Part shown: positions 12,810 through 37,356 of the stretch, one piece after another
Layout of the letters: every line of letters begins with the position of its first letter
Numbering within the stretch: the stretch's first letter is position 1
DNA from: Flavobacteriia bacterium
Lineage (GTDB): Bacteria > Bacteroidota > Bacteroidia > Flavobacteriales > Flavobacteriaceae
DNA length: 42,183 nucleotides
Assembly: GCA_011391075.1 (NCBI GenBank)
Contig: JAABRF010000012.1
Span: 1 to 42,183 of the forward strand
Direction of reading: 5' to 3'
The notes under the pieces: model-generated
What the model was told of the DNA's origin: nothing
Databases searched by the model: none
The model's input: the letters and a program-made list of their open reading frames with translations, nothing else
Made by a program: the position numbers and the translations under genes

Positions 12810-14075
12810 TTACGCTTTTTTAAGCAGTTCAGCTAATTGAATTGTAAGATTTTTGCGATGAAATTTTTCCACATTAACCGACTCAATTTTCAATTGATTT
12901 TTCATAAAGTGTTTGAAATATATTTCAAGTCCTTGTTTGAGTCCTTCTTTATCGTCAAAATCTACAACAATACCCGATTGCGTATGGTCAATAATATCTG
13001 CCAAATCACCATCGGTTGGCGCAATAGCCAAAATAGGTCTCTTTGATCTCAAATATTCATATACTTTTCCGGTGATAATGGTTTTGGCACTGGGTACATT
13101 GTTGATTATCAATAATAAAACCTGACTTTTCATTTGAAATGCAGCTACGGCATGACTTGGTAAATATTGGGTATAATTGACAAAGCGCTCCAAATTATAC
13201 AAACGTATGCTATTGCGAACCTCATCGGCTATATGACCTACCAAATTGATTTGAACACTAGATTCAAAATCCTCATTTTCTTCCAACATTTCAGCTAAAA
13301 CCTCCCATAAAAGAATAGGATTGCGGTCGGCATTAAGCATCCCGATGTGTGTGAGCGTAAATGGTTTGTCCATTTCTGGAGCTTCTGAGACGTTGGCATC
13401 GTCAAACCCATTGGTTATAACGGTACAATTGGGATTTACTTTTTCAAATTGACTTTTCATGGTATTGCTGACAACAGTTACCTGATCGGCTTTTTGTAAA
13501 ACTTCGGTTTCTAGTTCCAAATGTCTAGCTATACTCTTTTGGGTCAAAGGTAAATGATGAAAATAGTCGATTTCTGTCCAAGGATCTCGAAAATCAGCCA
13601 GCCATTTTACGCCTGTTTTTTCTTTTACTTTTTTTCCAATCAAATGAACAGAATGAGGTGGACCTGTTGTAATTATCCAATCAACAGGATTTTTTTGAAG
13701 GTATTGAATGATTTTTTTACTGGAAGGATTGATCCAAAACTTTCTTGCATCGGGAATGAAAAAATTGGCTCTTATATAATGCTTGAACTTTTGAACCAAA
13801 GTAGGTTTTTCGGGCAAAAATCCACTTCCGGCATTCTTGTTTTTAGAAACCATTTGTCCGGGTTCCCATATTTTCTGGCGCAAGATTTCGATTCCTTCTG
13901 GAATTTGGCTTTCCAAACTTTTATCAGTAATGGGATATTTTGGATTTTCAACCGTAAAAACTACAGGTTCAATTCCGTTGTTGCGAAGATATTTGACGAA
14001 ATACAACCAACGTTGCACGCCACTTCCGCCAGCAGGCGGCCAATAGTAAGTGATGATAAGGGCTTTTAATGCCAT
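12810..14075 (-). CDS. Glycosyltransferase family 4
   Basis: This 421-residue GT-B glycosyltransferase starts with a GT4-type N-terminal signature (ALIITYYWPPAGGSGVQR, 5-22). Further on are PVDWIITTGPPHSVH (about 130-144), the KADQVTVVSNTM segment before an NGFD hinge, and a C-terminal donor domain with LTHIGML and SGIVVDF. No signal peptide or membrane helix is seen, so it is a cytoplasmic or peripheral enzyme. It probably acts in surface polysaccharide or glycan synthesis; donor and acceptor cannot be inferred. A second GT4 gene starts divergently 123 bp away. Confidence 0.85.
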   Translation of the reverse strand: MALKALIITYYWPPAGGSGVQRWLYFVKYLRNNGIEPVVFTVENPKYPITDKSLESQIPEGIEILRQKIWEPGQMVSKNKNAGSGFLPEKPTLVQKFKHYIRANFFIPDARKFWINPSSKKIIQYLQKNPVDWIITTGPPHSVHLIGKKVKEKTGVKWLADFRDPWTEIDYFHHLPLTQKSIARHLELETEVLQKADQVTVVSNTMKSQFEKVNPNCTVITNGFDDANVSEAPEMDKPFTLTHIGMLNADRNPILLWEVLAEMLEENEDFESSVQINLVGHIADEVRNSIRLYNLERFVNYTQYLPSHAVAAFQMKSQVLLLIINNVPSAKTIITGKVYEYLRSKRPILAIAPTDGDLADIIDHTQSGIVVDFDDKEGLKQGLEIYFKHFMKNQLKIESVNVEKFHRKNLTIQLAELLKKA

Positions 14076-14183
14076 GTAAATTCTTTATTCAATTATCGGT
14101 TTCAGAGACATTTAGAATGCTAATTCAATCAGAATTAGAAGATGTATTTTAGAAATATACATTCAAAATTCTTAAAATAGAAT

Positions 14184-14191
14184 TATATTTG
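14184..14191 (+). promoter_or_regulatory. -7 element directly before a start codon
   Basis: TATATTTG matches TAnnTTTG exactly and ends 7 nt before the ATG at 14199. Transcription would begin at or next to the start codon, giving a leaderless or nearly leaderless mRNA. No TTG -33 box is seen. Confidence 0.38.
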
Positions 14192-24146: not shown

Positions 24147-25100
24147 ATGGCTTGGATCATTTTATTTAGTGTATTTTTTATTTTAATAACTTTTGACATG
24201 CTGGTTTTGCATAAGAAATCAGAAAAAGTCAGTCATAAAAAAGCGGCTATTGAAACTGCTTTTTGGGTAGTATTTGCCATGCTTTTTGCAATTGCGGTTT
24301 ATTATTTTTACAAATTTGATTGGATCGTCAGTGAAATGGAACCTGCTGAGGCAGTTACAAAATACTTGACCGGTTACCTCATCGAATTGTCATTGAGTGT
24401 AGATAACCTTTTTGTCATTGCTACCATTTTTGCCAGTCAGAAAGTGCCCATGAAATATCAGCATCGCGTATTGTTTTGGGGAATAGTTGGAGCCATTGTG
24501 ATGCGAGCTTTGATGATTTTCTTTGGAATAGCCTTGATGGAAAAATTTGAATGGATGACTTATGTTTTTGGGATATTTTTATTGTATACGGCCTTTAATA
24601 TGCTCAAACATGAAAATGATGAACATCACGAAGATGAGAAATTCAAATTTATAAAGAAATATTTCAAAGTAACTAAGAATTTTCATGCAGAACATTTTTG
24701 GATTATTGAAAATGGGAAAAGAGTTTTCACCCCATTATTCATTGCATTGATTATGATAGAATTTACCGATGTCATTTTTGCATTGGATAGTATTCCTGCC
24801 ATTTTAGCTGTAACTACCGAACGATTCATCGTGTTTAGTTCCAATATTTTTGCGATTCTCGGATTGAGAAGTATGTATTTCTTTTTAGCCAATATGTTGG
24901 AAAAATTCCATTATTTAAAGTACAGTATATTTGCCATTTTGGTATTTGTATCCATCAAATTATTGCTTTTACATACCGAATTTATCAAATTACTTCCAAG
25001 TTGGTTCTCACTTACTTTTATTGGTGTTTCTCTACTACTCGGGGTTTTAGTGTCGGTAAATAAGATTACACACGATGATGTGGATGATTTAAAAGATTAG
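24147..25100 (+). CDS. TerC family integral membrane protein
   Basis: This 317-residue protein has about eight membrane helices and the TerC signatures ELSLSVDNLFVIATIF (about 83-98) and IEFTDVIFALDSIPAILAVT (about 205-224), with conserved Asp residues inside the helices. TerC-like proteins are linked to metal export, for example manganese, and to tellurite resistance or membrane metalation of exoenzymes. Substrate and role here are inferred only. A His/Glu/Asp-rich loop (NDEHHEDEKF, about 152-161) could bind metal. The gene stands alone between the octamer array and a strong terminator. Confidence 0.88.
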   Translation: MAWIILFSVFFILITFDMLVLHKKSEKVSHKKAAIETAFWVVFAMLFAIAVYYFYKFDWIVSEMEPAEAVTKYLTGYLIELSLSVDNLFVIATIFASQKVPMKYQHRVLFWGIVGAIVMRALMIFFGIALMEKFEWMTYVFGIFLLYTAFNMLKHENDEHHEDEKFKFIKKYFKVTKNFHAEHFWIIENGKRVFTPLFIALIMIEFTDVIFALDSIPAILAVTTERFIVFSSNIFAILGLRSMYFFLANMLEKFHYLKYSIFAILVFVSIKLLLLHTEFIKLLPSWFSLTFIGVSLLLGVLVSVNKITHDDVDDLKD

Positions 25101-25113
25101 TAACATATATGAT

Positions 25114-25148
25114 TAAAAAAAAACCGCTTTTACGAGCGGTTTTTTTTG
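25114..25148. terminator. Bidirectional intrinsic terminator after TerC
   Basis: A nine-bp perfect stem AAAACCGCT / AGCGGTTTT (25120-25128, 25135-25143) has a 6-nt loop. An A-run precedes it and a T-run follows, so it can act in both directions. It lies 19 bp after the TerC stop. Confidence 0.9.
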
Positions 25149-25165
25149 TTATGATATATTTTTTA

Positions 25166-25208
25166 TTGGAAATATTTGTACTAAAATTTCCAATATACTG
25201 GAAATTTT
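25166..25208. terminator. Two overlapping AT hairpins at the 3' end of rlmN
   Basis: TTGGAAAT (25166-25173) can pair with ATTTCCAA (25186-25193). Alternatively AAAATTTCCA (25183-25192) pairs perfectly with TGGAAATTTT (25199-25208). The two hairpins exclude each other. They follow the rlmN stop on the minus strand and may act as a weak terminator or 3' stabiliser. Confidence 0.4.
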
Positions 25209-25218
25209 CATACCTAAT

Positions 25219-26250
25219 TCAACTTTTATTAGCCAATTGTCCACAAGCAGCATCAATGTCTTTACCTCGACTGCGACGAATGTTGACGATGATTCCGTTT
25301 TTTTCTAATTCGCTTACATATTGCTCGATGATGATAGGCGAAGCTTGTTCAAATGCGCCGTCATCTATAGGGTTGTATTCAATCAGATTGACTTTGGCAG
25401 GTACTTGTTTGCAATAATGAACTAATGCATCAATGTCTTTTTGTTTGTCATTAATGCCTTTCCAAACTACATATTCAAAAGTAATGCGATTACCGGTTTT
25501 TTGATGCCAATATTGTAAAGCATCCATGAGTTCGTCCAGATTGTTTGATATATTGACAGGCATCATTTTACTGCGAACTTCATCGATGGCTGAATGCAAT
25601 GAAAGAGCCAGATTAAATTTGACTTGATCATCAGCCATGCGTTTGATCATTTTGGGAATGCCTACGGTCGAAAGTGTAATGCGTCTGGGTGACATACCCA
25701 AACCTTCTTCGGAAGTGATTTTATCTATGGCTTTCATCACATTTTCATAGTTGAGCAAAGGTTCGCCCATGCCCATAAAAACGATATTGGTCAATTTATG
25801 TCCGTAGAGTAATTCGCTTTCTTTGCTGATGGCTGCTACTTGGTCGTAAATTTCATCGGGAAGTAGATTGCGTTGTTTTTTTAATCTTGCAGTAGCGCAA
25901 AAAGTACATCCCATTGCGCAACCTACTTGGCTGGAAACACAAGCTGTTGTGCGGTTTTCTGTAGGAATCATCACCGATTCTACGACTAAACCATCGTGAA
26001 GTTTAACTGCATTTTTAACCGTTCCATCAGTACTCCTCTGTATGTTGTCTACAGCAATGTGATTGATGCTGAAATGTTCTTCCAAAAACAATCGCGTTTC
26101 TTTAGAGAGATTGGTCATTTCCTCAAATGTATGCGCATTTTTTTTCCACAACCATTCATAGACTTGATTGCCGCGAAAGGATTGTTGGCCTTGCGAAACA
26201 AAATAATCTCTTAAAGCTTCTTTAGAATAGGAACGAATGTCTTTTTTCAA
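25219..26250 (-). CDS. rlmN: 23S rRNA/tRNA A2503/A37-C2 methyltransferase RlmN
   Basis: This 343-residue radical SAM enzyme methylates C2 of A2503 in 23S rRNA and A37 in some tRNAs. Visible elements are the 4Fe-4S motif CAMGCTFC (Cys111, Cys115, Cys118), MGMGEPLLNYENV, LSLHSAIDEVRSKMMP, and the methyl-carrying Cys336 in AACGQL near the end. The N-terminus has KDIRSYSKEALRDYFVSQG...FRGNQVYEWLW, as in homologues. The start codon is TTG at 26250. An in-frame TAA lies five codons upstream with no ATG or GTG between, so the TTG start is well supported. A candidate -7 box lies about 60 bp upstream. Confidence 0.95.
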   Translation of the reverse strand: MKKDIRSYSKEALRDYFVSQGQQSFRGNQVYEWLWKKNAHTFEEMTNLSKETRLFLEEHFSINHIAVDNIQRSTDGTVKNAVKLHDGLVVESVMIPTENRTTACVSSQVGCAMGCTFCATARLKKQRNLLPDEIYDQVAAISKESELLYGHKLTNIVFMGMGEPLLNYENVMKAIDKITSEEGLGMSPRRITLSTVGIPKMIKRMADDQVKFNLALSLHSAIDEVRSKMMPVNISNNLDELMDALQYWHQKTGNRITFEYVVWKGINDKQKDIDALVHYCKQVPAKVNLIEYNPIDDGAFEQASPIIIEQYVSELEKNGIIVNIRRSRGKDIDAACGQLANKS

Positions 26251-26311
26251 GGTTGGATTTGATTAGAACGAAATGAGTATTGTGACTTTGATATGTCATT
26301 TATAAAAAAGG

Positions 26312-26319
26312 CAAAGATA
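26312..26319 (-). promoter_or_regulatory. Candidate -7 element of rlmN
   Basis: The minus strand reads TATCTTTG, an exact TAnnTTTG match, predicting a leader of about 55 nt before the TTG start of rlmN. Confidence 0.35.
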
Positions 26320-26351
26320 TAATTTTTTGAAACTTGAATAGAAATTCAATT

Positions 26352-27260
26352 TTACAGTGCCATTTCCCGAAAAGAAAGTACAGTTTCAAACCCTTTTCTT
26401 TTAAAATATTCTGGAGTATCTTCATTACCGGTTGCCATTATAAAATCTCCGCCCCAAGCGCCCAAACTTTTCAATTGTCCAAAATAATCTTTGAAATGGG
26501 TTTGAATGGGATTGCGTTTTAAAACGCTTGCCAGTAATTTTTCATGTTCATTCATCAAAAGTGCAAAATCATCTATGCAATTTACTTTCAACATCAATTC
26601 CGATATTTCGGACACCAGATGAATAACCTCTTTTTTGTCTGTTACAGTTAAGGATTTGTATCTGTTGATTTCTCTCGAACTGCGTTGTTTTTGATTGAGA
26701 TGAATAAAAAATAATTGGTCGGCAAAATCGGGTGAAAAATGTACAGGAGTTACTATGGATTTTTGATTTTGTAGTTGGTAGTATAAAGGTGTATTACTTC
26801 CGGCACATGCCAAATCATAACCACTGCCGCCCATAGTGTTTGCAAGCAACTCGTAAGGATTGACATGAGCCCAAGTTGCTAAATTGTAGATTAAAGTGGA
26901 GGAACTACCCAATCCCCATTTTCTTGGAAATTCTAGATGCGTTGTCACTTCATAGCCTTGAGATCCGTTGAAAAAATCGGGATTGAGTTGCCGGATTTGC
27001 AAGAATATATGTTTGAGCGTTTGAATGATTTTTGGATCGCTTTTGCGAATGGTAATTGGAAAGTGGAATGTGCGCTCCAACCATACTTTTCCATTTTCAT
27101 CATAACTTTTCCAAAAAACTTTATGCTCCGAAATTTCCTTGACAACCAAATCCTGACCTTTTTTGGTAGGCACAGCCAAAGCTAAAGCACCATCCAATAC
27201 GAGATATTCTCCAGTCAAGAGGAGTTTGCCGTGTGCATAATATGTTGATTGATTTTTGAT
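26352..27260 (-). CDS. GHMP kinase (GYDIA-type), probable non-AUG start
   Basis: This GHMP-superfamily small-molecule kinase resembles mevalonate-pathway kinases of flavobacteria. Visible motifs are HGKLLLTGEYLVLDGALALAVPT at the N-terminus (split by the TTG at 27218), the ATP-binding KWGLGSSSTL, a GGSGYDLACAGS segment, and the C-terminal GAWGGDFIMAT. The homologous N-terminus YYAHGKLL is encoded upstream of the TTG. Between the in-frame TAA (27276-27278) and that TTG there is no ATG, GTG or TTG. Initiation at AUC (27258-27260) or AUU (27267-27269) is therefore likely, and the end given here assumes AUC. The substrate is not certain. The gene is minus strand, upstream of rlmN. Confidence 0.8.
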   Translation of the reverse strand: MKNQSTYYAHGKLLLTGEYLVLDGALALAVPTKKGQDLVVKEISEHKVFWKSYDENGKVWLERTFHFPITIRKSDPKIIQTLKHIFLQIRQLNPDFFNGSQGYEVTTHLEFPRKWGLGSSSTLIYNLATWAHVNPYELLANTMGGSGYDLACAGSNTPLYYQLQNQKSIVTPVHFSPDFADQLFFIHLNQKQRSSREINRYKSLTVTDKKEVIHLVSEISELMLKVNCIDDFALLMNEHEKLLASVLKRNPIQTHFKDYFGQLKSLGAWGGDFIMATGNEDTPEYFKRKGFETVLSFREMAL

Positions 27261-27424
27261 TTTAGAAATTAGAAATTAAATTTTAGATATTTAGTTCCGA
27301 TTTCCGATAGACCTGCGACGTATCAGGTGTTGTATCGGGACGGGATTAGATTTTTAATTTTTATTAATCGGGATGATTATTGGATAATTGTCATTGACTG
27401 CTATTTAATAGGTGCCAACACCAA
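27255..27424. repeat. Low-complexity spacer before the GHMP kinase gene
   Basis: The segment 27255-27300 has GATTTTAGAAATTAGAAATTAAATTTTAG-like repeats that overlap the expected start of the GHMP kinase gene. The rest holds repeated CGATT/ATCGGGA words (27296-27375). No ORF or clear promoter is visible. Confidence 0.4.
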
Positions 27425-28318
27425 CTATACCTTCCGCATCTTCAGCACACTATTTAAAACCACTACACTTAAAATCAAAGCCCCGCCTATATAAAAAGAT
27501 GGGTACATCTTCTCTTTATCTCCAAATATAAGGAGTGCCAATATAATACCGTAAACCGGCTCCAAATTAATACTGAGCATGATGGTATAGGGACTGAGGT
27601 TTTTCATGAGTTTGATAGAAGTCAATCCGGCATACGCTGTACATATACTAGCCAAAATGAGTAAATACATCCAATCTTTAAAACTCAAATTAAAAAATTG
27701 CATGGAAAAGCCTCCACTTATAAGCAAGACTACCGAGATAATCAAAGCGCCTATTCCAAATTCATACAGCGTAATGACTTCGGGTTTGTAGGTTTTTACA
27801 TACAATCCATTAATGACAGAAAACAAGGCAGATGTCAAGGCTGCCGAAAGTCCCCACAACATGCCTTTGATATTAAATGTATCACCTTTAAACATGAAAT
27901 ACAAGATACCAATAATCATTAATCCGAGAACTACTTCGTATTTGCTTACTTTTCTTCTAAAAAAAACAGGTTCCAATAGCGATGTAAAAAAAGCACCGGT
28001 ACTCAAGGTAATGAGTGTAACCGATACATTGGATACTTTGATGGCATGAAAAAATGAAAACCAATGCAATGCAATAACAGCTCCCATAAAAAAGAATCTT
28101 AAAAACGCTTTGATATCAATGCGAATGGAAATTTTTTTATACCAAAACCAGAGTAATAAAAAAGGTATGGTCAAGGTTAACCGATACCAAACCAATGGAA
28201 TGGCTTCCAAGGATATCAAAGCACCGAGAATAGCTGTAAAACCCCATATAAAAATAAGTGAATGCAGGATGTAATAATCCCGATATCCGTTGGGTGTAAA
28301 GTTATTGTTTGGATGCAT
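27425..28318 (-). CDS. EamA/DMT-family transporter
   Basis: This 297-residue membrane protein has about ten helices arranged as two EamA repeats (about 15-140 and 155-295). The second repeat ends in SINLEPVYGIILALLIFGDKE, a typical EamA motif. Such drug/metabolite transporters export or import small metabolites; the substrate cannot be read. Its start lies within the 3' end of the LptF/LptG-type gene (17-bp overlap), so the two are translated from one mRNA. Confidence 0.9.
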   Translation of the reverse strand: MHPNNNFTPNGYRDYYILHSLIFIWGFTAILGALISLEAIPLVWYRLTLTIPFLLLWFWYKKISIRIDIKAFLRFFFMGAVIALHWFSFFHAIKVSNVSVTLITLSTGAFFTSLLEPVFFRRKVSKYEVVLGLMIIGILYFMFKGDTFNIKGMLWGLSAALTSALFSVINGLYVKTYKPEVITLYEFGIGALIISVVLLISGGFSMQFFNLSFKDWMYLLILASICTAYAGLTSIKLMKNLSPYTIMLSINLEPVYGIILALLIFGDKEKMYPSFYIGGALILSVVVLNSVLKMRKV

Positions 28319-29387
28319 GCCTATAAAGTAAAATAGCTAATATACCAAACACCATATTGGGTAACCAAACTAAAAAATAAGTTTGGGCACCGGCTACAGC
28401 ACCCAGTACTTCAGTGATCTTCATAAAGAATATATATATAAAAGCAATTCCGATACCTATGGCCAGATTGATACCTGTTCCGCCTCTTTTCTTTCTACTC
28501 GAAAGGGCTACTGCTATCATTGTCAATATAAAAGCTGAGAAAGGTAAACTAGTGCGTTTCAGTAATTCTACTTTGTAGGCATTGAGATTTTTAACGCCTC
28601 TTTCTTTCGACAAATTGATATAATGATACAATTCTGGGCTCTTCATTTCTTTAGCCAAATAATCTTCATAATATAAATCTTTGGGATAAAAATTAAAAAC
28701 AGTATCCATTTGAGCACCTATTTCAATCTTATCTCTTTCTTTATACACATGTCTTTTGGTATAATTACTCAACCGATATGTACTATCATTTTCATTCCAT
28801 TTGAGAGTATTGGCTTTGATTCTGTATTTCAAATGTATACTGTCGTAATGTTCATACACTATATCCGACCCTCGATTTTGATCTACGGTAAATGACTTCA
28901 TAAATAAATAATCACTTTCTCCCAATTGCAAAGACAAGTCAACTAGAAAACGATCATCGTGCTTTTTGGCTAAGTAAGTTCTATCAAATACTGTGAATTT
29001 ATAATTACTTCGCGGCACAATGAAATGATTCATAAACAAAGAGAAAATCGCAACGGTCAAAGAACCAATAAAAAATGGATAGAGTAAACGGTTGAAGGAA
29101 ATCTGTGCCGAATGCATGGCAATAATTTCTGTATTGTTGGCCAACTTGGAAGTAAACCACACAACTGCCAAAAACAAAGCCAATGGCAAAAACTGATTGG
29201 CATAGGTAATGATGAAATGCTGGTAATAATCCTTGACAATAATCCAAAAAGTCAAAGTGGGTTCGTGTAAAAATTTGTCAATTCGCTCTGAGATATCGAT
29301 CGCTATTCCCACCGGCAATATGATCACTATAATCAATGCCAACGAACTGAAAAATTTTTTTAAAATATATTTGTCGAGTATTCTCAT
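28302..29387 (-). CDS. LptF/LptG (YjgP/YjgQ) family permease
   Basis: This 361-residue protein has the LptF/LptG plan: three helices at each end (the first near 12-32, then 55-75 and 97-117; the last group near 280-355) around a periplasmic beta-jellyroll. Signatures are LDKYILKKFFSSL at the N-terminus and AKLANNTEIIAMHSAQIS-like text near 85-100 (SKLANNTEIIAMHSAQIS). It forms the inner membrane part of the LptB2FG ABC transporter that extracts LPS. It overlaps the EamA gene and lies downstream of tgt, a conserved flavobacterial order. Confidence 0.9.
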   Translation of the reverse strand: MRILDKYILKKFFSSLALIIVIILPVGIAIDISERIDKFLHEPTLTFWIIVKDYYQHFIITYANQFLPLALFLAVVWFTSKLANNTEIIAMHSAQISFNRLLYPFFIGSLTVAIFSLFMNHFIVPRSNYKFTVFDRTYLAKKHDDRFLVDLSLQLGESDYLFMKSFTVDQNRGSDIVYEHYDSIHLKYRIKANTLKWNENDSTYRLSNYTKRHVYKERDKIEIGAQMDTVFNFYPKDLYYEDYLAKEMKSPELYHYINLSKERGVKNLNAYKVELLKRTSLPFSAFILTMIAVALSSRKKRGGTGINLAIGIGIAFIYIFFMKITEVLGAVAGAQTYFLVWLPNMVFGILAILLYRHASKQ

Positions 29388-29511
29388 GTATAGAATAGTG
29401 TACCTATATAGTGTAAATTAATATATCAAATCCCAAATCCCATCCAGATAGCTATCGGGACCAAATTCCAAAAACTAATAACTTAATAACCTGAAACAAT
29501 AAACAATAAAC

Positions 29512-30642
29512 CTATAGCCTAACATCCAATCGTTTTACCATTTCCGCTTTCCAAGTACTAAAATCACCGGCCAAAATATGTTTTCTAGCTTCGCGAACCA
29601 ACCACAAATAGAATCCCAAATTGTGGATACTGGCTATTTGTTTGCCCAACAATTCATTGGCGACAAACAAGTGGCGAAGGTACGCTTTTGAATATTGTAA
29701 ATCAACATAGGTAATTCCCATTTCGTCTATGGGTGAAAAATCGGCTTCCCATTTTTTATTCTTGATGTTGATGTGTCCATTGGCGGTAAACAACATACCA
29801 TTTCTCGCATTGCGGGTAGGCATGACACAATCAAACATATCTACGCCCAAAGCGATATTTTCCAAAATATTGACCGGAGTACCTACGCCCATCAAGTATC
29901 GAGGTTTGTCGTACGGCAAAATATCACAAACCAATTCGGTCATTTCATACATATCCTCAGCTGGTTCACCTACCGATAAGCCGCCAATGGCATTGCCATC
30001 TGCATTTCGAGAAGCGATATACTCAGCCGATTCTTTTCGCAAATCCTTAAAAGTACTGCCTTGTACAATAGGAAATAGGGATTGTTGATAACCATACAAA
30101 GGTGGATTTTGGCCTAAATGGGTGATGGCTCTATCCAACCAACGATGCGTCATGTGCATGGATTCCATCGCATATTTATAGGTGGAAGGATAAGGCGGAC
30201 ATTCGTCAAATGCCATGATGATATCGGCACCAATGCCACGTTGAATATCCATGACACTTTCGGGTGTAAAGTGATGATAGGAACCATCGATGTGACTTTG
30301 AAACTTCACGCCTTCTTCTTTGATTTTACGCCTTGCTGCCAAGGAATATACTTGATAACCGCCACTATCAGTAAGTATGGGCCGGTCCCAACCGTTGAAT
30401 TGGTGCAAACCACCGGCTTGTTTCAGTATTTCAGTCCCGGGACGTAAATAAAGATGATAGGTATTACCCAGAATAATCTCGGCATTGATATCTTCTTTTA
30501 ATTCGCGTTGGTGAACGCCCTTGACCGTACCTACTGTGCCTACCGGCATAAAAATAGGTGTGTGAATAACGCCATGATCGGTGACTAATTCACCGGCTCT
30601 GGCTTTGCTTTGCGCATCCTTTGATTTGATTTCAAACTTCAT
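29512..30642 (-). CDS. tgt: tRNA-guanine transglycosylase Tgt
   Basis: This 376-residue enzyme exchanges guanine 34 for preQ1 in GUN-anticodon tRNAs on the way to queuosine. Motifs are TDSGGYQVYSLA with Asp92, IVQGSTFKDLR, GGLSVGEP, and GVDMFDCVMPTRNARNG with the nucleophile region at 268-271. The C-terminal zinc region is unusual. Where most bacterial Tgt have a CDCYTC triad after SPLDPE, this protein reads PIDEMGITYVDLQYSKAYLRHL and has no cysteine after Cys272. The later IHN histidine is kept. A -7 element ends 7 nt before the ATG, implying an almost leaderless mRNA. Confidence 0.95.
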   Translation of the reverse strand: MKFEIKSKDAQSKARAGELVTDHGVIHTPIFMPVGTVGTVKGVHQRELKEDINAEIILGNTYHLYLRPGTEILKQAGGLHQFNGWDRPILTDSGGYQVYSLAARRKIKEEGVKFQSHIDGSYHHFTPESVMDIQRGIGADIIMAFDECPPYPSTYKYAMESMHMTHRWLDRAITHLGQNPPLYGYQQSLFPIVQGSTFKDLRKESAEYIASRNADGNAIGGLSVGEPAEDMYEMTELVCDILPYDKPRYLMGVGTPVNILENIALGVDMFDCVMPTRNARNGMLFTANGHINIKNKKWEADFSPIDEMGITYVDLQYSKAYLRHLFVANELLGKQIASIHNLGFYLWLVREARKHILAGDFSTWKAEMVKRLDVRL

Positions 30643-30649
30643 AAGGCGG

Positions 30650-30657
30650 CAAAGATA
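30650..30657 (-). promoter_or_regulatory. -7 element directly upstream of tgt
   Basis: The minus strand reads TATCTTTG and then 7 bases before the tgt ATG, so transcription would start at about the start codon. No -33 TTG is seen. Confidence 0.38.
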
Positions 30658-30772
30658 AAAAAGTTAGATGTTTGAAGATAGCAGAAATCTATAAAAAACA
30701 TTGCTTTTAGCAAAGTTTTGTGAACTCCTTTCTTTTTTAACCGATTTGCATTAAAAAAAACAGCAAATATCA

Positions 30773-30803
30773 TTGACACCGATGATATAATACATTACCT
30801 TTG
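30773..30803 (+). promoter_or_regulatory. Promoter of the CXXX-repeat peptide operon
   Basis: TTG (30773-30775) is followed by 20 nt and TACCTTTG (30796-30803), a full match to the Bacteroidota promoter TTG-N19-21-TAnnTTTG. The predicted start near 30810 gives a leader of about 58 nt before the first precursor gene. It is the best-formed promoter in the window. Confidence 0.65.
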
Positions 30804-30868
30804 TAGTTCAATCAGTTCTAAATTCTATCTTACTAAATTGTTTTCTGCAACTTTTAATCTTTAAGATT

Positions 30869-31342
30869 ATGGATGAAAACAGTGAAAGAAAAACTTTTCA
30901 TAGTAGAAGAGTTTTTTTTAAGAATATGGTTAAAATTGCACTACCTACTCTAGCAATTTTAAGCCTCGGTGGTGTCAATAACCTCTTGGCGAGTCCTTCC
31001 CCAATTTTACAATCCAAAAACACTTCCGAAAATCCTCCGACTACTTGTGAGTCATCTTGTATAGGCACTTGTAAAGGAACCTGTGAAGATACTTGTAGAG
31101 GACTTTGCAAAGACGACTGTGAAGGCACTTGTTCTTATGTATGTAAGGATACTTGTGAAAACAATTGTTTTGGCACCTGTGAAGGTTTTTGTGGAGAAAC
31201 CTGTAAAGGCGGTTGTATGGGAAGTTGCGGAAGTACTTGTGAAAACACCTGTAGAGATAGATGCGATGGCAGTTGCAACAACACCTGTCTTAACACTTGT
31301 CAAGATACTTGCACTGCCAATTGTTCCAATACTTCAGAATAA
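30869..31342 (+). CDS. Tat-exported CXXX-repeat peptide precursor 1
   Basis: This 157-residue protein begins with a twin-arginine signal: SRRVFFK (12-18), a hydrophobic stretch, and a likely cleavage site after LLA (41). From Cys60 to Cys152 every fourth residue is cysteine, 24 in all without a break. The three residues between are rich in Gly, Thr, Glu, Asp, Asn and Lys (EGT, KGT, EDT, GST). The regular pattern and the downstream radical SAM/SPASM gene identify it as the probable substrate of a peptide-modifying system, named CXXX-repeat target in protein family collections (from memory). It is paralogous to the next gene and lies 69 bp upstream of it. The final product is unknown. Confidence 0.85.
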   Translation: MDENSERKTFHSRRVFFKNMVKIALPTLAILSLGGVNNLLASPSPILQSKNTSENPPTTCESSCIGTCKGTCEDTCRGLCKDDCEGTCSYVCKDTCENNCFGTCEGFCGETCKGGCMGSCGSTCENTCRDRCDGSCNNTCLNTCQDTCTANCSNTSE

Positions 31343-31411
31343 TTTTGTAGTCAAATTTAACTTTCAAATTACAATCTATTTAAACTCATTTTTAACCATA
31401 ATACTATAACC

Positions 31412-31942
31412 ATGTGGCCTTCCAAAGACAAAATCACTCCAAAATCAGATGATTCTGATTCTGAAAACAAATTGGGTTTAGTAAAATCCAGAAGAGATTT
31501 TATGAGTATGGTTGTTAAAACAGCCATTCCTACTATTGCCTTGATTGGCAGTGGCAGTCTCACCAATCTGATGGCTCATCCAATACAGGAAAAATTAAAT
31601 CCCACTTTAAAAAGCTCTCAAGAGCCTTCAAGTCAAGAGCAAATGACTCCTAGCAGTTGTATGCTTTCTTGTGAAGGCGGATGTATGGGCACTTGTGAAA
31701 ATGATTGTATGGGCTCCTGTCAAGAGGGATGTATGGGTTCTTGTAAAGGAGATTGTCAATTGGGTTGTAATGATGGCTGTCTAGGAACTTGTGAAGGTGA
31801 ATGTTTTGCAACTTGTGAAGGTGGATGTAGAGGTTCTTGTGAAGGCTCCTGTCAATCCACTTGTGAAGGATTCTGTACCGGTGGTTGTGAAGGTACTTGC
31901 AAAGGCACTTGTGAAACCGGCTGCTCAGGTGCGGCGTGGTAA
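31412..31942 (+). CDS. Tat-exported CXXX-repeat peptide precursor 2
   Basis: This 176-residue paralogue of precursor 1 has a longer N-terminal region, then SRRDFM (26-31), a hydrophobic stretch and a likely cut after LMA (55). A Ser/Gln/Pro linker follows, then 23 cysteines at exactly every fourth position from Cys83 to Cys171. The spacing residues are Gly-richer than in precursor 1 (EGG, MGT, MGS, EGT). It ends in SGAAW. Its stop is one base before the start of the radical SAM gene, so translation is probably coupled. The signal regions of the two proteins align (PT.A...G...N.L.A.P), pointing to duplication. Confidence 0.87.
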   Translation: MWPSKDKITPKSDDSDSENKLGLVKSRRDFMSMVVKTAIPTIALIGSGSLTNLMAHPIQEKLNPTLKSSQEPSSQEQMTPSSCMLSCEGGCMGTCENDCMGSCQEGCMGSCKGDCQLGCNDGCLGTCEGECFATCEGGCRGSCEGSCQSTCEGFCTGGCEGTCKGTCETGCSGAAW

Positions 31943-31943
31943 G

Positions 31944-33143
31944 ATGTTTAATTACAGTTCATTTCAAATGATTGAAACAAAAGAGGTTATAATAGAAAAA
32001 ACCAATACTTGGGAAGAAGGTAAAGCCAAAAATATCACTTTTATTGTCACTGAAGATTGTCAACTACAGTGTAAATATTGTTATTTAGTAGGGAAAAACA
32101 ACCTCCATAAAATGGACTTTGAAACGGCAAAAAAGTCTATTGATTACTTGTTACTAGATCGCAACTATTTTTCCGAAACATCTGTGATTCTCGACTTTAT
32201 TGGTGGCGAACCTTTTATTGAAATTGATTTGATAGATAAAATCTGCGATTATTTTAAAATTAGAGCCTATGAAACAGATCATCCTTGTTTTAATAGTTAT
32301 AGATTTAGTTTTTCAACCAATGGGCTGCTGTATAATGACCCCAAAGTACAACAATTCATAATCAAAAATGAAACGCATCTCAGCATTCAAATCACCATTG
32401 ATGGAACCAAAGAGAAACACAATTTACAACGTGTTTATCCCGGTGGCAAAGGTTCATATGACCAAGTAGTTAAAAATGTTCCACTTTGGATCTCCCAATT
32501 TCCCAATGCTTCAACCAAAGTAACCATTGCCCGAGATGATCTCCCTTTTGTCAAAGATAGTGTGATTCATTTGTGGCATTTGGGCATTAAGGAAGTCAAT
32601 ATAAATGTGGTCTTTGAGGACGTTTGGGAACCGGGTGATGATGCTTTATTTGAAGAACAATTGGTTTTACTAGCCGATGAAATTATTGAAAATAAGTATT
32701 ACGAAGATTTCACTTGTTCTTTCTTTTCCACTCAAATAGGATTGCCTTACAAAGAAAATATGAATTGGTGTGGTGCCGGTAAAATGCTCGCTATTGATCA
32801 TGAGGGTAATTTTTTTCCTTGCAATAGGTTTGTCAATTATTCGCTTCAAAACAGAGAACAACTCCTCATTGGAGATAATCAGAAAGGGATTAATCAAAAC
32901 AGATTACGACCCTTCCTCACATTGGATATGTTTACTCAAAGTTCGCCCGAATGCGTGTCATGCGAAGTCGCTACAGGTTGCGCTTGGTGTCAAGGAGCCA
33001 ATTACGATTATGCAGATTCTTCAACCATATTTCAAAGAGCCACTTATTTGTGTCTAATGCATAAAGCTAGAGTTCGAGCCAATAATTATTTTTGGAATAA
33101 ACTAGAAAAAAAATTACAAAAAACCCTTAGAACATTACCTTAA
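31944..33143 (+). CDS. Radical SAM/SPASM peptide maturase, CXXX-repeat type
   Basis: The protein has 399 residues from the ATG at 31944. An in-frame extension to 31791 only reads an alternative frame of precursor 2. The 4Fe-4S motif is CQLQCKYC (Cys39, Cys43, Cys46), followed by GGEP (87-90) and ITIDGTKEKHN, the TIM-barrel signatures of radical SAM enzymes. The C-terminal SPASM domain has seven cysteines (276, 293, 337, 340, 346, 349, 370) to bind auxiliary clusters. SPASM enzymes modify ribosomal peptides, often with thioether or C-C links. The neighbouring Cys-repeat proteins are the obvious substrate. It resembles the family described as 'radical SAM peptide maturase, CXXX-repeat target' (from memory). 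Confidence 0.9.
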   Translation: MFNYSSFQMIETKEVIIEKTNTWEEGKAKNITFIVTEDCQLQCKYCYLVGKNNLHKMDFETAKKSIDYLLLDRNYFSETSVILDFIGGEPFIEIDLIDKICDYFKIRAYETDHPCFNSYRFSFSTNGLLYNDPKVQQFIIKNETHLSIQITIDGTKEKHNLQRVYPGGKGSYDQVVKNVPLWISQFPNASTKVTIARDDLPFVKDSVIHLWHLGIKEVNINVVFEDVWEPGDDALFEEQLVLLADEIIENKYYEDFTCSFFSTQIGLPYKENMNWCGAGKMLAIDHEGNFFPCNRFVNYSLQNREQLLIGDNQKGINQNRLRPFLTLDMFTQSSPECVSCEVATGCAWCQGANYDYADSSTIFQRATYLCLMHKARVRANNYFWNKLEKKLQKTLRTLP

Positions 33144-33154
33144 ATTCACAATAC

Positions 33155-34240
33155 ATGGTTTTGAAATATCTTTTAGTTTTACTCAGTGATTCTTCAGCTT
33201 CCTTTTGTTATTATCCATCTCCAAAAGCTGAAATACCTAAGGGAATTGCTGTGGCAAACTCCCATAAAAAAGATAATGCCTTTCATATTTCCGATGAAAA
33301 ACCAACCGATATTTATTATAATGAAAAACAGCATTTGATTTCGTTGGATCATCTCAAAAAAACAGTTGTATTTGCTTTAAAAAACAATCTTAAAGTTAAT
33401 TTTTTATATCCTCATTTTTTATTGGATGAAGCTTATACCAAAGTGATTGAAGAAGTAGAACACATCAAGATTATTCCTTTTGACGCCAAAATTTTCAATG
33501 AAGATGCCATACTCATTTTAGATTCCAATGATTTTCCTACAACTCTCGATTTAGTAAATTATACCCATCAAAATTTCATCTTAAAACTTCAAAAAAAGGA
33601 TCTAAAAAAATTGGATACCATGATTCAAATACTTCTTGCCAAAAGTGCTAGAATTAATTTGGTACTCATGGATTTGGAAAATTATGAGGAAAAAGATTAT
33701 GCTATTTATGAAAAGCAATTGGGAAAAATAACCCGTAAATTAATCCAATATCAAAATCAAAATGCCATTCCCGAATTGAATTTTCTAACCGATCGCATTG
33801 ATTTAAACCAAATGAATAATTGTCAAGCCGGAATTCAACATTTGACCATAGCTCCCAATGGAAAAATGTATTTGTGTCCTGCATTTTATCACGAAAATCC
33901 TTCCGAAGATTTAGGCGAAATTAAAAATGAAATATTCATCAAAAATGCCCGACTTTTAGAATTAAACTATGCGCCTATATGCCGTATTTGTGATGCATAT
34001 CAATGCAAAAGATGCGTCTATTTGAATAAAAAACTCACTTTAGAAATCAATACTCCTTCTTCTCAACAATGTATTACTTCACATATTGAAAGAGATGCTT
34101 CGCGAAGAATATTGGAAAAACTACAAAAAATGCATCCGGATTTCAATCCTCAGATTACTATTCCACAATTAAATTATAGAGATCCTTTTGAAATCGTAAA
34201 AGGTAATCCACAGAAAATAGCAACGTTAAACCATCCCTAA
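33155..34240 (+). CDS. CXXX-repeat maturation partner with stand-alone SPASM-like domain
   Basis: This 361-residue protein has no radical SAM CxxxCxxC motif: its N-terminal 220 residues hold a single cysteine (Cys18). The C-terminal part has a seven-cysteine SPASM-like arrangement (223, 241, 276, 279, 284, 287, 306) around NGKMYLCPAF and CRICDAYQCKRCVYL. The N-terminal half has alternating beta and alpha segments and may be a degenerate barrel. It lies 11 bp after the radical SAM gene and is probably its partner, as in the family named 'CXXX repeat peptide maturase' (from memory). A 45-residue Pro/Asn-rich tail ends the protein. Its function is inferred from context only. Confidence 0.78.
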   Translation: MVLKYLLVLLSDSSASFCYYPSPKAEIPKGIAVANSHKKDNAFHISDEKPTDIYYNEKQHLISLDHLKKTVVFALKNNLKVNFLYPHFLLDEAYTKVIEEVEHIKIIPFDAKIFNEDAILILDSNDFPTTLDLVNYTHQNFILKLQKKDLKKLDTMIQILLAKSARINLVLMDLENYEEKDYAIYEKQLGKITRKLIQYQNQNAIPELNFLTDRIDLNQMNNCQAGIQHLTIAPNGKMYLCPAFYHENPSEDLGEIKNEIFIKNARLLELNYAPICRICDAYQCKRCVYLNKKLTLEINTPSSQQCITSHIERDASRRILEKLQKMHPDFNPQITIPQLNYRDPFEIVKGNPQKIATLNHP

Positions 34241-34250
34241 TTTCAACACA

Positions 34251-34544
34251 ATGACGACAACCAAAAAACTGGTAGGAACCGTAACACCTCAACAACGAGA
34301 CGAGATCAAAACCCTTTATGAACGTAAAAACGGATTGACCGAACTTTTTAAAATTGTAGATGTCAACAACACATCTCTTTACAATAAACTTGTAAATGAC
34401 ATGGGTGAAACCGCTACAAAGTTTCAAAAATGGTGGGATGACCAAAGCAAAACAAACCAATGGGAAGGTAAAAAAGAACACCATTGGGAAATTAACTTTG
34501 AAACTTGTGAAATTTTTCTCGTGAATGATGGATTGAAAAAATGA
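34251..34544 (+). CDS. Small accessory protein of the CXXX-repeat peptide system
   Basis: This 97-residue soluble protein has no signal, membrane helix or cofactor motif. It is Lys/Glu/Trp-rich (KWWDDQSKTNQWEGKKEHHW near 59-78) with a helix-turn-helix-like middle (DEIKTLYERKNGLTELFKIVDVN). It starts 10 bp after the partner gene and is the last gene of the operon. It matches in size and position the protein named 'CXXX repeat peptide modification system protein' (from memory). A role as leader-binding adaptor or scaffold is possible but not shown. Confidence 0.7.
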   Translation: MTTTKKLVGTVTPQQRDEIKTLYERKNGLTELFKIVDVNNTSLYNKLVNDMGETATKFQKWWDDQSKTNQWEGKKEHHWEINFETCEIFLVNDGLKK

Positions 34545-34607: not shown

Positions 34608-35240
34608 TCATTTAAATTTATTTTCCAATGCAAATTGCAACAATGAATTGGAACCCACTATTTCCAGTTTACGCATCATATTTTTGCGATGTGTGTCGAT
34701 GGTTGATTTTGATACAAAAAGAAGACTCGCTATTTCAATAGTTGTTTTGCCTTGTGCAATGTAATGGAGAATTTCCTTTTCCCGCATAGATAAAATCCCT
34801 TTTTCAGTTACCATATTTTGAGTATCCGACAAGTCGTGCAATAAATTTAAGGAAAGATTGGGGTCTAAAAATTGATTCCCCGACATTGCTTGCTCAACAG
34901 CAAATACTAAAGTTTTCAAGCCTGAATTTTTAAGCACATAAGCATCAGCTCCGGCTTTTAGCGCTTGTTGGATGGTTGTATATTGGTCAAACATGCTGAG
35001 TACGACCACTTTTATTTGGGGATATTGCTCTTTAATTTTAAATGTCGCTTCAATGCCGTCCATCTTGGGCATTCTCACATCAGTAATTACAACATCGGGT
35101 TGATGTTTATCAACGCTTTGTAACAATGCTTCTCCATTGGAAACAATTTCCAATATTTGGAGATTTGGATGATGTTCTAAAAAGGCCATGATCCCATCGG
35201 AGAGAATTTGATGATCTTCAGCTAAGACAATATGAATCAT
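34608..35240 (-). CDS. LuxR-family (NarL-type) response regulator
   Basis: This 210-residue regulator has a receiver domain (1-120) with the phospho-acceptor Asp54 in VVITDVRMPKMDG, and Lys104 in AYVLKNSG. The C-terminal LuxR-type helix-turn-helix spans about 150-205 (LSMREKEILHYIAQGKTTIEIASLLFVSKSTIDTHRKNMMRKL, split in two helices). It is translated 4 bp overlapping (ATGA) with the histidine kinase gene, so the two form a two-component pair. Its target genes cannot be read from the window. It is convergent with the CXXX operon. Confidence 0.94.
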   Translation of the reverse strand: MIHIVLAEDHQILSDGIMAFLEHHPNLQILEIVSNGEALLQSVDKHQPDVVITDVRMPKMDGIEATFKIKEQYPQIKVVVLSMFDQYTTIQQALKAGADAYVLKNSGLKTLVFAVEQAMSGNQFLDPNLSLNLLHDLSDTQNMVTEKGILSMREKEILHYIAQGKTTIEIASLLFVSKSTIDTHRKNMMRKLEIVGSNSLLQFALENKFK

Positions 35241-37330
35241 ATCGGTATATCAATATTAATGGTAGTTCCTTTTCCTTTAAAACTATCGACTAAAAATGTG
35301 CCACCAAGGTGTTCAATTTTTCTTTTGAGATTGTAAAGGCCCATGCCTTTTTCAAGAATTTTATCAGAATAATCAAAACCTGAACCATTGTCTTCAACCA
35401 AAATGTTAAATTCGTGGTCAAAATTGGTTATTTGCGCATTGATTTGAGTAGCTTTAGCATGTTTGATAGCATTGGAAATCAGCTCTTGAAGCGTATTGTA
35501 AATTAACACCTTGGATTCATCTTTCATATCTTTATCAAATCCAAATAATTCAATTTTAACCAAAGTTTGGTCATTGGAATTGATGTTGTTCAATAATTTT
35601 TCCAAAGCCAATTCCAATCCCTTTTGAGCTACCAAAGTATTGGATTTGAGATGTGATAAATTTCTTATTTTTTGATATGATTGATCTACGATTGATTCCA
35701 ATTTATATAGAATTTCCTTCGTATTAGGAGTAGTAGGTTGGTTTAAAAGATTCTCGATATGCATTTTTAAAGTAGCCATATCGCTGCCAATGTTGTCGTG
35801 TAGTTCTTCGGAAATAGATTGACGTTCTTGTTCTTGACCTGAAACACAAGCGTTAATGACTTGCATTTCCTGATTTTTAATTAAGGTCAGTACTTTTTGT
35901 TCTTCAATGGCTTGTTTTTGTTGGGCTAAAACTTTTTTTCTGTTGGAGTTTTTAAGAAACAAATATGCAATGTAAATTGACGACAAAAATGCTCCCAATG
36001 CACTGAATAATAAAATCTTATTCAGTTGGTTGTCTTTACTCAATTCACTTATCTTATTTTGATTTTCAAAATTGTCAATTTGCCTTTTACGGGTTTCAAT
36101 ACTATTTGAATTCTCAAAATTATAAATACTGTCTTTGGACGCTACCATTTTTTCAAAGTAATACAAAGCTGAATCAGATTTTTTCAAACCTTTGTAGGAT
36201 TGATACAGGTTTTCATAAACATTGAAAAGTTCGTTGTGTTGTTGATTAGATGACAATAAACGCAACGCTTTTAATCCGAATTGAATCGATTTTTGAAAAT
36301 CACCTTTGTCTTGATACAGTGCAGAATAGTTTTGATAAATGGTTCGTTCCAAATCTATATTCTTTTTGTCTTTGATGGTTTGATAGGCTGAGTCGTAGTA
36401 TTTTTCAGCCAAACTATAGTCTTTTTGAAAAGAAAATGTAGTACCTATATTCATATAAGCCAATGCTATAGACTTTAGATTATGAGTGAGTTTTTGGTTG
36501 GTTAAAACCAATTTATGATAATGAAAAGCGCTATCATATTGTTTTAAAGATCTGAAGGAAACAGCGATATTGTTGTAAAACTCACTGATTCTTTTTTTGT
36601 TTTGTTCTTTTAAAGCATAGTTAATTCCTTTTTTATTAAAGGCTATTGATTTTTGAATGTCTTTGGTTTTTCCATAATCAATTCCCAGTTGCAAATAGGC
36701 ATAAGCAATGTCATCATTGTTTTGCAAACGACTGACAATTTCGAGATTTTGTTGAAAATAATGCAAGGAATTTTTATAATTACCATTGGCACGCTCTAAT
36801 TTACCCAAATCAATCAAAACCTGACTTTCCAAGGTTGGGTTTTTAATTTTTTGAGCAACTTTCAAAATGGAATCCAATAAAAACTGAGCTGTTTCCTTGT
36901 CATTTTGTTTCAATAAAATACCGGCAATACGATGTTTTATTTTCAAGATTTCAAGCGTTAAATGATGCTTTTGAGCCAGCAATAAAGTGTTTTGATAGGT
37001 TTGAAGCGACCATTCCATATCTCCATTGATGGATTGAAAAGTACCCAATTGAATGGCATACGAAACTTGTTTGGATGTGTTTTTTTGACTTTTTGCCCAA
37101 GCAATGGCTTCATTGGAAAAAAACATTCCCGGATCAGGTTTGTTTTCCTTATTCAAGAATTCTAAAATTTCTTCATATTTTAAACCTTTTTGATGCTCAT
37201 TTTTGATATTGGATAAAACCGATGACAAGGAGTCTTTGAGTTCATCTTGTTTGGGTTTTTGAGCATAGACCATTTCCCATTGAAAAAAAAATGTAGCTAA
37301 AAGTAAGAAAATGAAGTTTTTAGTAATCAT
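35237..37330 (-). CDS. TPR sensor histidine kinase, HisKA_3 type
   Basis: The protein has 697 residues from the ATG at 37330 (MITKNFIFLLL...); a TTG 7 codons upstream is less likely. A signal peptide ends at ..VYAQ. A periplasmic tetratricopeptide repeat region follows (about 60-400, many A..Y..LG...AE.YY motifs), then one membrane helix (about 435-455), a coiled coil and a HisKA_3 domain with His511 in SEELHDNIGSD. The HATPase_c domain has N-box NAIKHAK and G-box GSGFD and GMGLYNLKRK. The TPR sensor probably detects a protein or peptide signal. A -7 element (37349-37356) lies 19-26 bp upstream of the ATG. Confidence 0.92.
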   Translation of the reverse strand: MITKNFIFLLLATFFFQWEMVYAQKPKQDELKDSLSSVLSNIKNEHQKGLKYEEILEFLNKENKPDPGMFFSNEAIAWAKSQKNTSKQVSYAIQLGTFQSINGDMEWSLQTYQNTLLLAQKHHLTLEILKIKHRIAGILLKQNDKETAQFLLDSILKVAQKIKNPTLESQVLIDLGKLERANGNYKNSLHYFQQNLEIVSRLQNNDDIAYAYLQLGIDYGKTKDIQKSIAFNKKGINYALKEQNKKRISEFYNNIAVSFRSLKQYDSAFHYHKLVLTNQKLTHNLKSIALAYMNIGTTFSFQKDYSLAEKYYDSAYQTIKDKKNIDLERTIYQNYSALYQDKGDFQKSIQFGLKALRLLSSNQQHNELFNVYENLYQSYKGLKKSDSALYYFEKMVASKDSIYNFENSNSIETRKRQIDNFENQNKISELSKDNQLNKILLFSALGAFLSSIYIAYLFLKNSNRKKVLAQQKQAIEEQKVLTLIKNQEMQVINACVSGQEQERQSISEELHDNIGSDMATLKMHIENLLNQPTTPNTKEILYKLESIVDQSYQKIRNLSHLKSNTLVAQKGLELALEKLLNNINSNDQTLVKIELFGFDKDMKDESKVLIYNTLQELISNAIKHAKATQINAQITNFDHEFNILVEDNGSGFDYSDKILEKGMGLYNLKRKIEHLGGTFLVDSFKGKGTTINIDIPI

Positions 37331-37348
37331 GGAATAAGATTGATGGGT

Positions 37349-37356
37349 CAAAGTTA
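37349..37356 (-). promoter_or_regulatory. Candidate -7 element of the two-component operon
   Basis: The minus strand reads TAACTTTG, a TAnnTTTG match giving a leader of about 12 nt to the ATG at 37330. No matching -33 TTG is visible. Its position supports the ATG over the upstream TTG. Confidence 0.3.

Follow-up and report, generated by a model that had tools for sequence, protein, structure and literature searches.

What do a pair of cysteine-repeat precursors become when they are encoded next to a radical S-adenosylmethionine (SAM) enzyme, and by what route does the product leave the cell? This question is raised by a five-gene operon of a Flavobacteriia bacterium (family Flavobacteriaceae; assembly GCA_011391075.1), located in a stretch of 42,183 nucleotides on contig JAABRF010000012.1 that we analyzed as a whole, referred to as the window. 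In the open reading frame (ORF) listing of the window, all five genes lie on the + strand: two precursors (P1 and P2), a radical SAM/SPASM maturase (rSAM), a SPASM-like protein (MAT) and a small protein (SML). P1 and P2 are separated by 69 bp and the remaining gaps are 1, 11 and 10 bp, exactly as in the strand-uniform operon that a first-pass annotation had read from the sequence. We propose, with a probability of roughly 0.55, that the operon makes a ribosomally synthesized and post-translationally modified peptide (RiPP), or protein, that is exported by the twin-arginine translocation (Tat) pathway after an active/pseudo pair of radical SAM proteins has cross-linked its cysteine ladder. The genes and the elements within them are as follows.

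30869-31342, + strand: P1, cysteine-repeat precursor, 157 residues, 24 Cys.
30902-30922, + strand: putative Tat motif of P1, SRRVFFK, then a hydrophobic stretch with ALPTLAIL (by motif and eye).
31046-31339, + strand: P1 core, 24 consecutive CXXX units (by shuffle test).
31412-31942, + strand: P2, cysteine-repeat precursor, 176 residues, 23 Cys, C-terminus CSGAAW.
31487-31501, + strand: putative Tat motif of P2, SRRDF (read from the sequence).
31658-31939, + strand: P2 core, 23 consecutive CXXX units (by shuffle test).
31944-33143, + strand: rSAM, radical SAM/SPASM maturase, 399 residues from the ATG taken as its start; a longer frame from GTG at 31791 appears in the ORF listing.
32058-32081, + strand: CX3CX2C radical SAM cluster motif of rSAM, C39/C43/C46 (invariant in 29/29 sequences).
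32769-33053, + strand: seven-Cys SPASM region of rSAM, C276 to C370 (all seven Cys in 29/29).
33155-34240, + strand: MAT, degenerate radical SAM/SPASM partner by profile match to the maturase, 361 residues.
33206-33208, + strand: C18 of MAT, the one Cys left at the place of the radical SAM motif (28 of 30 sequences by script, two by eye).
33821-34072, + strand: intact seven-Cys SPASM region of MAT, C223 to C306 (30/30).
34251-34544, + strand: SML, small accessory protein, 97 residues.

We scored the five proteins against NCBIfam models with curated cut-offs, a profile search that had been proposed with the first-pass annotation for the three maturation proteins. rSAM reached 575.3 bits against TIGR04115 (cut-off 350), MAT 239.1 bits against TIGR04119 (cut-off 150), and SML 78.6 bits against TIGR04116 (cut-off 50), so the ‘CXXX repeat’ family names given for them in that annotation were correct. 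P1 passed both precursor models (TIGR04117: 56.1 bits, cut-off 50; TIGR04114: 34.6 bits, cut-off 20), and P2 passed TIGR04114 (29.8 bits) and fell 1.1 bits below the TIGR04117 cut-off (48.9 bits), the sole tested departure from an NCBIfam set of which all components are present. The operon is a member of this catalogued CXXX-repeat set, and since NCBI had already catalogued the families, the earlier description of an undescribed system was too strong. Its accompanying statement, that product and chemistry are not established, stands so far as our literature search reached, which found no publication naming the five families or a product of theirs. The Tat motifs, the pseudo-radical-SAM nature of MAT, the gene fusions and an ATP-binding cassette (ABC) exporter variant go beyond that annotation. 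When searched with TIGR04114, the window's own genome gave nine matches, all inside the operon except one 12-position match below the cut-off.

We then asked how far the cysteine ladders depart from chance. The longest C-X3 run in 10,000 core shuffles was 7 for P1 and 6 for P2, compared to the 24 and 23 units observed. Relative to a same-genus contig, L019, no core Cys was changed (0/24 in P1, 0/21 aligned in P2) against 10/74 and 6/65 of the other core residues, and the two P2 copies differ in length by exactly two repeats (8 residues). The wider comparison used 43 distinct precursors, with L019 and the window both counted; we dropped an Arg-rich artefact (L027 4161) and a duplicate (L081, the same place as L028), and precursors of L068, L076, L080 and L082, seen at a looser threshold alone, stand outside the set. 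Cys-Cys spacing was 4 in 579/631 cases, position +2 of the repeat favored Gly and then Ser/Asn/Asp, and position +3 favored Thr/Gly/Ser, leaving Cys as the sole invariant residue. The number of core Cys ranged from 5 to 45 per precursor and was odd in 26/43. At least one of D/E/N/T/S was present in 519/579 repeats, relative to 480-516 in 300 shuffles, which is compatible with a pool of thioether acceptors and not decisive. Of 58 non-Cys residues compared, P1 had 33 in common with one acidobacterial precursor, a share that none of 300 phase-preserving shuffles reached (maximum 0.50); non-Cys identity stayed within the shuffles for P1 against four other relatives and for P2 against five. Separately, a C-terminal CSG-x-AW was seen in 7/43 precursors (window 31922-31939, L017, L018, L019, L020, L021, L070), a subclass found in Bacteroidota, Ignavibacteriae and Acidobacteria that may mark a C-terminal recognition or processing signal.

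The chemistry was approached through the relatives of the active maturase. The closest solved relative is the ranthipeptide enzyme CteB, both by sequence (5wgg, E = 3.1 × 10−39, profile of 15 maturases) and by fold (Z 32.7, root-mean-square deviation 2.9, 335 residues), followed by ChlB (Z 27.9) and anaerobic sulfatase maturases (Z 27.0). The fold search used the model of an rSAM-MAT fusion, L072 (mean predicted local distance difference test score (pLDDT) 85, predicted template-modeling score 0.86), whose first half is 57% identical to the window maturase, and covered mainly residues 18-375 of 730. Among family models, the PapB model NF047865 was the second-best match of the maturase. CteB and PapB form thioethers from Cys to non-alpha carbons, and D, E, N and T are the acceptor types named for ranthipeptides (PMC11002830, PMC8326336). 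An auxiliary cluster of CteB has an open coordination facing the peptide (PMC8326336); the substrate Cys of PapB attaches to an auxiliary cluster, and in its authors' model the electron is passed out, likely through the other auxiliary cluster (PMC10470005). Because the window maturase lies closest to these thioether-forming enzymes, thioether formation is our best guess, by homology, at what it does.

The same data bear on a different reading, which we hold to be unlikely, in which rSAM makes some other change (epimerization, Cys oxidation as in sulfatase maturases, or carbon-carbon links) and the cysteines of the array either stay free thiols or pair as disulfides once exported. Unlike Cys, the potential thioether acceptors vary between repeats, and anaerobic sulfatase maturases do match well by fold; however, CteB ranks above them, and the maturase scored 60.2 bits against the sulfatase maturase model, whose cut-off is 349. 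The odd core Cys numbers speak against closure by disulfides alone, which we set aside as unlikely.

We next considered MAT, which the first-pass annotation had called a second SPASM-like protein without a radical SAM motif. The absence is real, with no CX3CX2C in 30/30 sequences, but the description falls short: on its profile matches, MAT is a decayed radical SAM protein in which a single cluster cysteine of the three remains and the seven SPASM Cys are all retained. It matched the maturase with a probability of 93.3 over residues 132-332 and, in a second run, of 96.8 over 284 columns from residue 2, an alignment read to residue 318 in which the register of C18 relative to C43 or C46 is ambiguous. 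The top match of that second run (72 columns, mostly insert columns) was taken as an artefact of fusion cutting. These alignments, together with the secondary structure of the fusion model, predict an N-terminal barrel for MAT.

Gene fusions suggest how the three maturation proteins may work together. rSAM and MAT form a single ORF in 14 distinct loci (Thermoguttaceae, Clostridia; confirmed by NCBIfam in 3/3 scanned), MAT and SML form a single protein in L065 and L066 (one scanned and confirmed), and each locus examined had both SPASM proteins, where its contig extends far enough to tell. From the two kinds of fusion we infer that rSAM, MAT and SML probably form one complex. There is a precedent in thuricin CD, where only TrnC's radical SAM cluster is strictly needed within the TrnC-TrnD complex (PMC12093266), and fusions, pairing and precedent jointly argue for a complex with one live and one dead radical SAM subunit. 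MAT could also be read as an independent second maturase with a step of its own rather than a partner subunit, in keeping with its NCBIfam name (maturase) and its retained Cys for two auxiliary clusters; given the uniform loss of CX3CX2C and the 14 loci where it shares a chain with rSAM, we consider this very improbable. Irregular arrangements were also seen: in L076 (turned locus, 5684-7866) the rSAM-MAT fusion is apparently split by a frame change, through sequence error or decay; L082 has, ~3.6 kb downstream of the fused maturase, another radical SAM gene (turned locus, 12841-14184) that scores 101 bits to the window maturase; and L024 carries a DUF4595 gene with a lipoprotein-like start (L024:6391-7245) between MAT and SML.

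SML was modeled as beta-alpha-alpha-beta-beta (pLDDT 92). Structure searches with this model returned nothing at E ≤ 0.001 in Foldseek and a best Z of 7.2 in VIA, within the stated background for helical models, and a profile search of the PDB gave nothing below E 0.24.

To examine the export route, we looked for RR-x-F, which we take to define the twin-arginine motif, and judged leaders by motif and eye rather than by a signal-peptide predictor. The motif precedes a hydrophobic stretch in 31/43 precursors, including P1 and P2, which are probably Tat-exported. TatC is encoded in the window's own genome (assembly 68% complete) and in 21/22 of the carrier genomes examined, where G001 and G488 stand for a single genome; the exception, G498, carries precursors of the non-RR type at the locus. 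In three Bacteroidales loci (L023 by Pfam, L026 and L031 by similarity), tatA-tatC directly follows the SML gene, and each of these genomes has a second tatC elsewhere. Four loci (L024, L032, L065, L066) show, by eye, a lipoprotein-like Cys shortly after the hydrophobic stretch.

Precursors without RR occur in 11 distinct loci (L028, L029, L067-L069, L074, L077-L080, L082), nine of which have an ABC exporter gene within ~6 kb compared to none of the 20 RR loci scanned (L076 among them; some contigs short, such as L018 with 3,221 bases). An exporter was called at a similarity of at least 229 bits to that of L028 or L067, and Pfam was run on three of the nine (L028, L067, L080). At one RR locus, L025, a gene for a small ABC ATPase (70 bits) lies 4.8 kb upstream. 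Before the four loci seen at the looser threshold were added, and with relatedness ignored, the association with leader type was 6/8 versus 0/20 (P = 7 × 10−5, Fisher test). Seven of the 11 non-RR loci are clostridial, and relatedness therefore explains part of this pattern; an independent case of non-RR leaders with an ABC exporter is provided by L067-L069, which belong to the same phylum as the window. The exporter was the sole neighbor family within 5 kb common to more than four independent loci.

A leader motif, hydrophobic-P-x-hydrophobic, may be what the maturation enzymes read. It was present in 29/31 RR leaders, compared to ~7 expected from shuffles of the same residues, the motif having been chosen on the same leaders on which it was counted, and was kept in 4/4 non-RR leaders of L067, L069 and L074, and likewise, by eye, in L068. 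Other observations touch the leaders. The Thermoguttaceae precursors of L074 (turned locus, 1080-1631, 4376-4663) start M-[LF]-Y-x-K-I, resembling clostridial leaders, and retain V/I-P-F-L with no RR, a possible intermediate leader type. A subtilase gene just upstream of the fused maturase in L077 and L078 (Peptidase_S8, 67 bits in L078; L077 by similarity) possibly encodes the leader peptidase of the clostridial type. A related large protein adjoins clostridial operons (L028:12660-14894, L029:3162-5300, L079:3194-5374), with a solute-binding-protein domain above cut-off in L028 and below it in L029.

Tat carries folded, cofactor-loaded proteins, so the same leaders would also suit a Tat-exported metal-binding protein whose ladder takes up metal or Fe-S while still in the cytoplasm, with the radical SAM pair merely tuning it. 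The very high Cys density is in line with this, and copper-binding bufferins with Sec signals and Cys motifs exist (PMC12452194). We judge it quite improbable: within the limits set by contig ends, no locus examined lacked either SPASM protein; P1 has non-Cys residues in common with one acidobacterial precursor beyond composition, though not with four others; and, as a weak point given that neighbors were not screened individually for metal genes, the ABC exporter was the only recurrent neighbor family.

Combining these observations, we favor the following mechanism for a Tat-exported, cross-linked product. P1 and P2 would be made with a Tat signal peptide that doubles as recognition leader, and a cytoplasmic complex of rSAM, MAT and SML would work along the C-terminal CXXX array, forming thioethers between cysteine sulfurs and carbons of neighboring residues; in most repeats Thr, Ser, Asn, Asp or Glu is available as a potential acceptor. 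MAT, without the normal SAM-cleaving cluster site and with its seven-Cys SPASM region kept, would hold the substrate and/or relay electrons, and the adjacent SPASM domains of the pair could accommodate two array Cys or provide an electron exit path. The finished, rigid product would be exported by Tat and then cleaved, or in some relatives retained as a lipoprotein. A leader of the Tat type is in keeping with a product whose maturation has to be completed prior to export. The role would be extracytoplasmic, with low confidence most likely that of a secreted or surface interaction or structural peptide.

Several results weigh against this proposal. The Cys-X3-Asp geometry of PapB is impossible inside an uninterrupted CXXX array, where +4 is the next Cys, and 6/43 precursors have no D or E in any repeat; the geometry must therefore differ from the one PapB prefers, and PapB's reaction itself cannot be general. 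On the same six precursors, we rejected Cys-Asp/Glu as a universal link. A further 60/579 repeats lack any D/E/N/T/S, with the overall excess of such residues over shuffles slight. The maturase lies far below the cut-off of the PapB-type model NF047865 (196.3 versus 340 bits), and it has no CteB-type N-terminal extension, the match beginning with profile residue 17 and CteB residue 92. No RiPP recognition element (RRE), taken as three beta strands plus a winged helix-turn-helix, was recognized in SML, whose modeled strand order differs; with the maturase also short of CteB's extension, leader recognition is left unexplained. SML is itself absent from L067-L069, so it is not always needed. As for the leaders, G497 (L028) has TatC though its precursors have no RR, no ABC exporter was in reach at the non-RR loci L074 (contig of 4,966 bases) and L077, and the hydrophobic-P-x-hydrophobic motif was found in 0/8 clostridial leaders. 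The one clostridial precursor scanned, that of L028, matched no CXXX precursor model, and we found no mass or structural data for any family member.

A bolder version would be a covalent ladder of up to ~45 units, with Cys i joined to i+4 (the next Cys, at the distance seen in PapB's Cys-X3-Asp) or to a residue between. An obligate active/pseudo radical SAM pair would build it processively, with successive thiolates bound by its two SPASM domains, and the Tat signal would serve as leader, so that export would be confined to the rigid, finished ladder. This version fits with the tatA-tatC genes found next to the operon in three loci of Bacteroidales and with the ABC exporter that takes the place of Tat elsewhere; we nonetheless regard it as improbable.

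We also determined how widely the system occurs, in genome samples that include the window's own genome or seed genomes. TIGR04115 was above cut-off in 2/99 relatives and 6/395 genomes of the phylum (both including the window's own), in 3/86 of one family of that phylum (all among the six), and in 4/396 Acidobacteria (phylum of L021), 8/119 Thermoguttaceae (family of L027) and 5/341 Clostridia (class of L028), a rare and patchy distribution. Sixteen named loci come from metagenome-assembled genomes of Bacteroidota, Ignavibacteriae, Acidobacteria, Aminicenantes, Chitinivibrionales, Thermoguttaceae and Clostridia. In its best segment the window maturase is 69% identical to that of acidobacterial L017 and 68% to that of ignavibacterial L018, which makes transfer between phyla likely. 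In the neighborhood survey (34 neighborhoods, L017-L032 and L065-L082; L081 duplicates L028, and L019 and L002 are one genome), Cys-repeat genes lay beside maturase homologues in 32/34 (31/33 distinct places), four of them at the looser threshold alone, as the first-pass annotation had anticipated. No Cys-repeat gene was seen in L075 or in L030, where the contig breaks off within the rSAM gene.

The ends of the operon were examined separately. Upstream lies one candidate promoter.

30773-30803, + strand: promoter match of Bacteroidota type (TTG-N20-TANNTTTG), 65 bases upstream of P1, a plausible position.

The consensus TTG-N20-TANNTTTG is presumably that of Bacteroidota promoters. The site reported in the first-pass annotation as a full Bacteroidota promoter ahead of the four packed genes does exist; it lies upstream of P1 rather than of those four, and with one match in the window where shuffles predict 1.69, its occurrence does not exceed chance. 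A sigma-70-type scan gave 25 sites compared to 15.8 (standard deviation 4.3) in shuffles, which has little meaning in this phylum. The gene upstream of the operon had no match in G002 or G003 in an empty-site comparison. Similarity to L019 (92% over 24190-34544) stops exactly at the SML stop codon, beyond which L019 has 6.6 kb without a match in the window, reflecting a rearrangement or an assembly break. Downstream, on the - strand (34608-37351), the ORFs resemble those of a response regulator of LuxR type and a sensor kinase with TPRs.

Two wider questions could be addressed with this system. Sec signal peptides on RiPP precursors are described as a rare feature, and the avoidance of premature export there as unresolved (PMC12452194). 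In general, Tat moves folded proteins, and its use would directly answer the premature-export problem. Because the same maturase goes with Tat leaders at some loci and with an ABC exporter at others, this answer is testable. Likewise, the role of auxiliary clusters has been called largely enigmatic (PMC10470005), and a naturally cluster-less radical SAM subunit with auxiliary-cluster Cys, often fused to a live one, would help separate the roles of the two cluster kinds.

Among the literature matches listed, no equivalent combined a Tat-motif RiPP leader, a cluster-less radical SAM subunit with intact SPASM and an exporter swap, and known systems resemble the window operon in part. Ranthipeptides (CteA/CteB; PapA/PapB, freyrasin) likewise pair a Cys-rich substrate with a radical SAM enzyme carrying a seven-Cys SPASM domain, and their enzymes are the closest characterized or solved relatives of the window maturase by sequence and fold. 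Unlike them, the window system has longer precursors, Cys rather than Asp at i+4 (freyrasin-type CX3D/CX3E core motifs do not occur in the P1 and P2 arrays), a Tat motif in the leader, no N-terminal extension such as the one that carries CteB's RRE, and a degenerate partner enzyme plus a separate small protein. Bufferins share a RiPP precursor with a general-export signal peptide as leader and a Cys-containing product, and differ in using Sec rather than Tat and an MNIO, another enzyme class (PMC12452194). In thuricin CD, TrnC and TrnD are two SPASM-type proteins that act as a complex in which one gives the essential radical SAM chemistry (PMC12093266); both have RRE domains (TrnD's not canonical), and TrnD still cleaves SAM, whereas MAT has lost the cluster motif.

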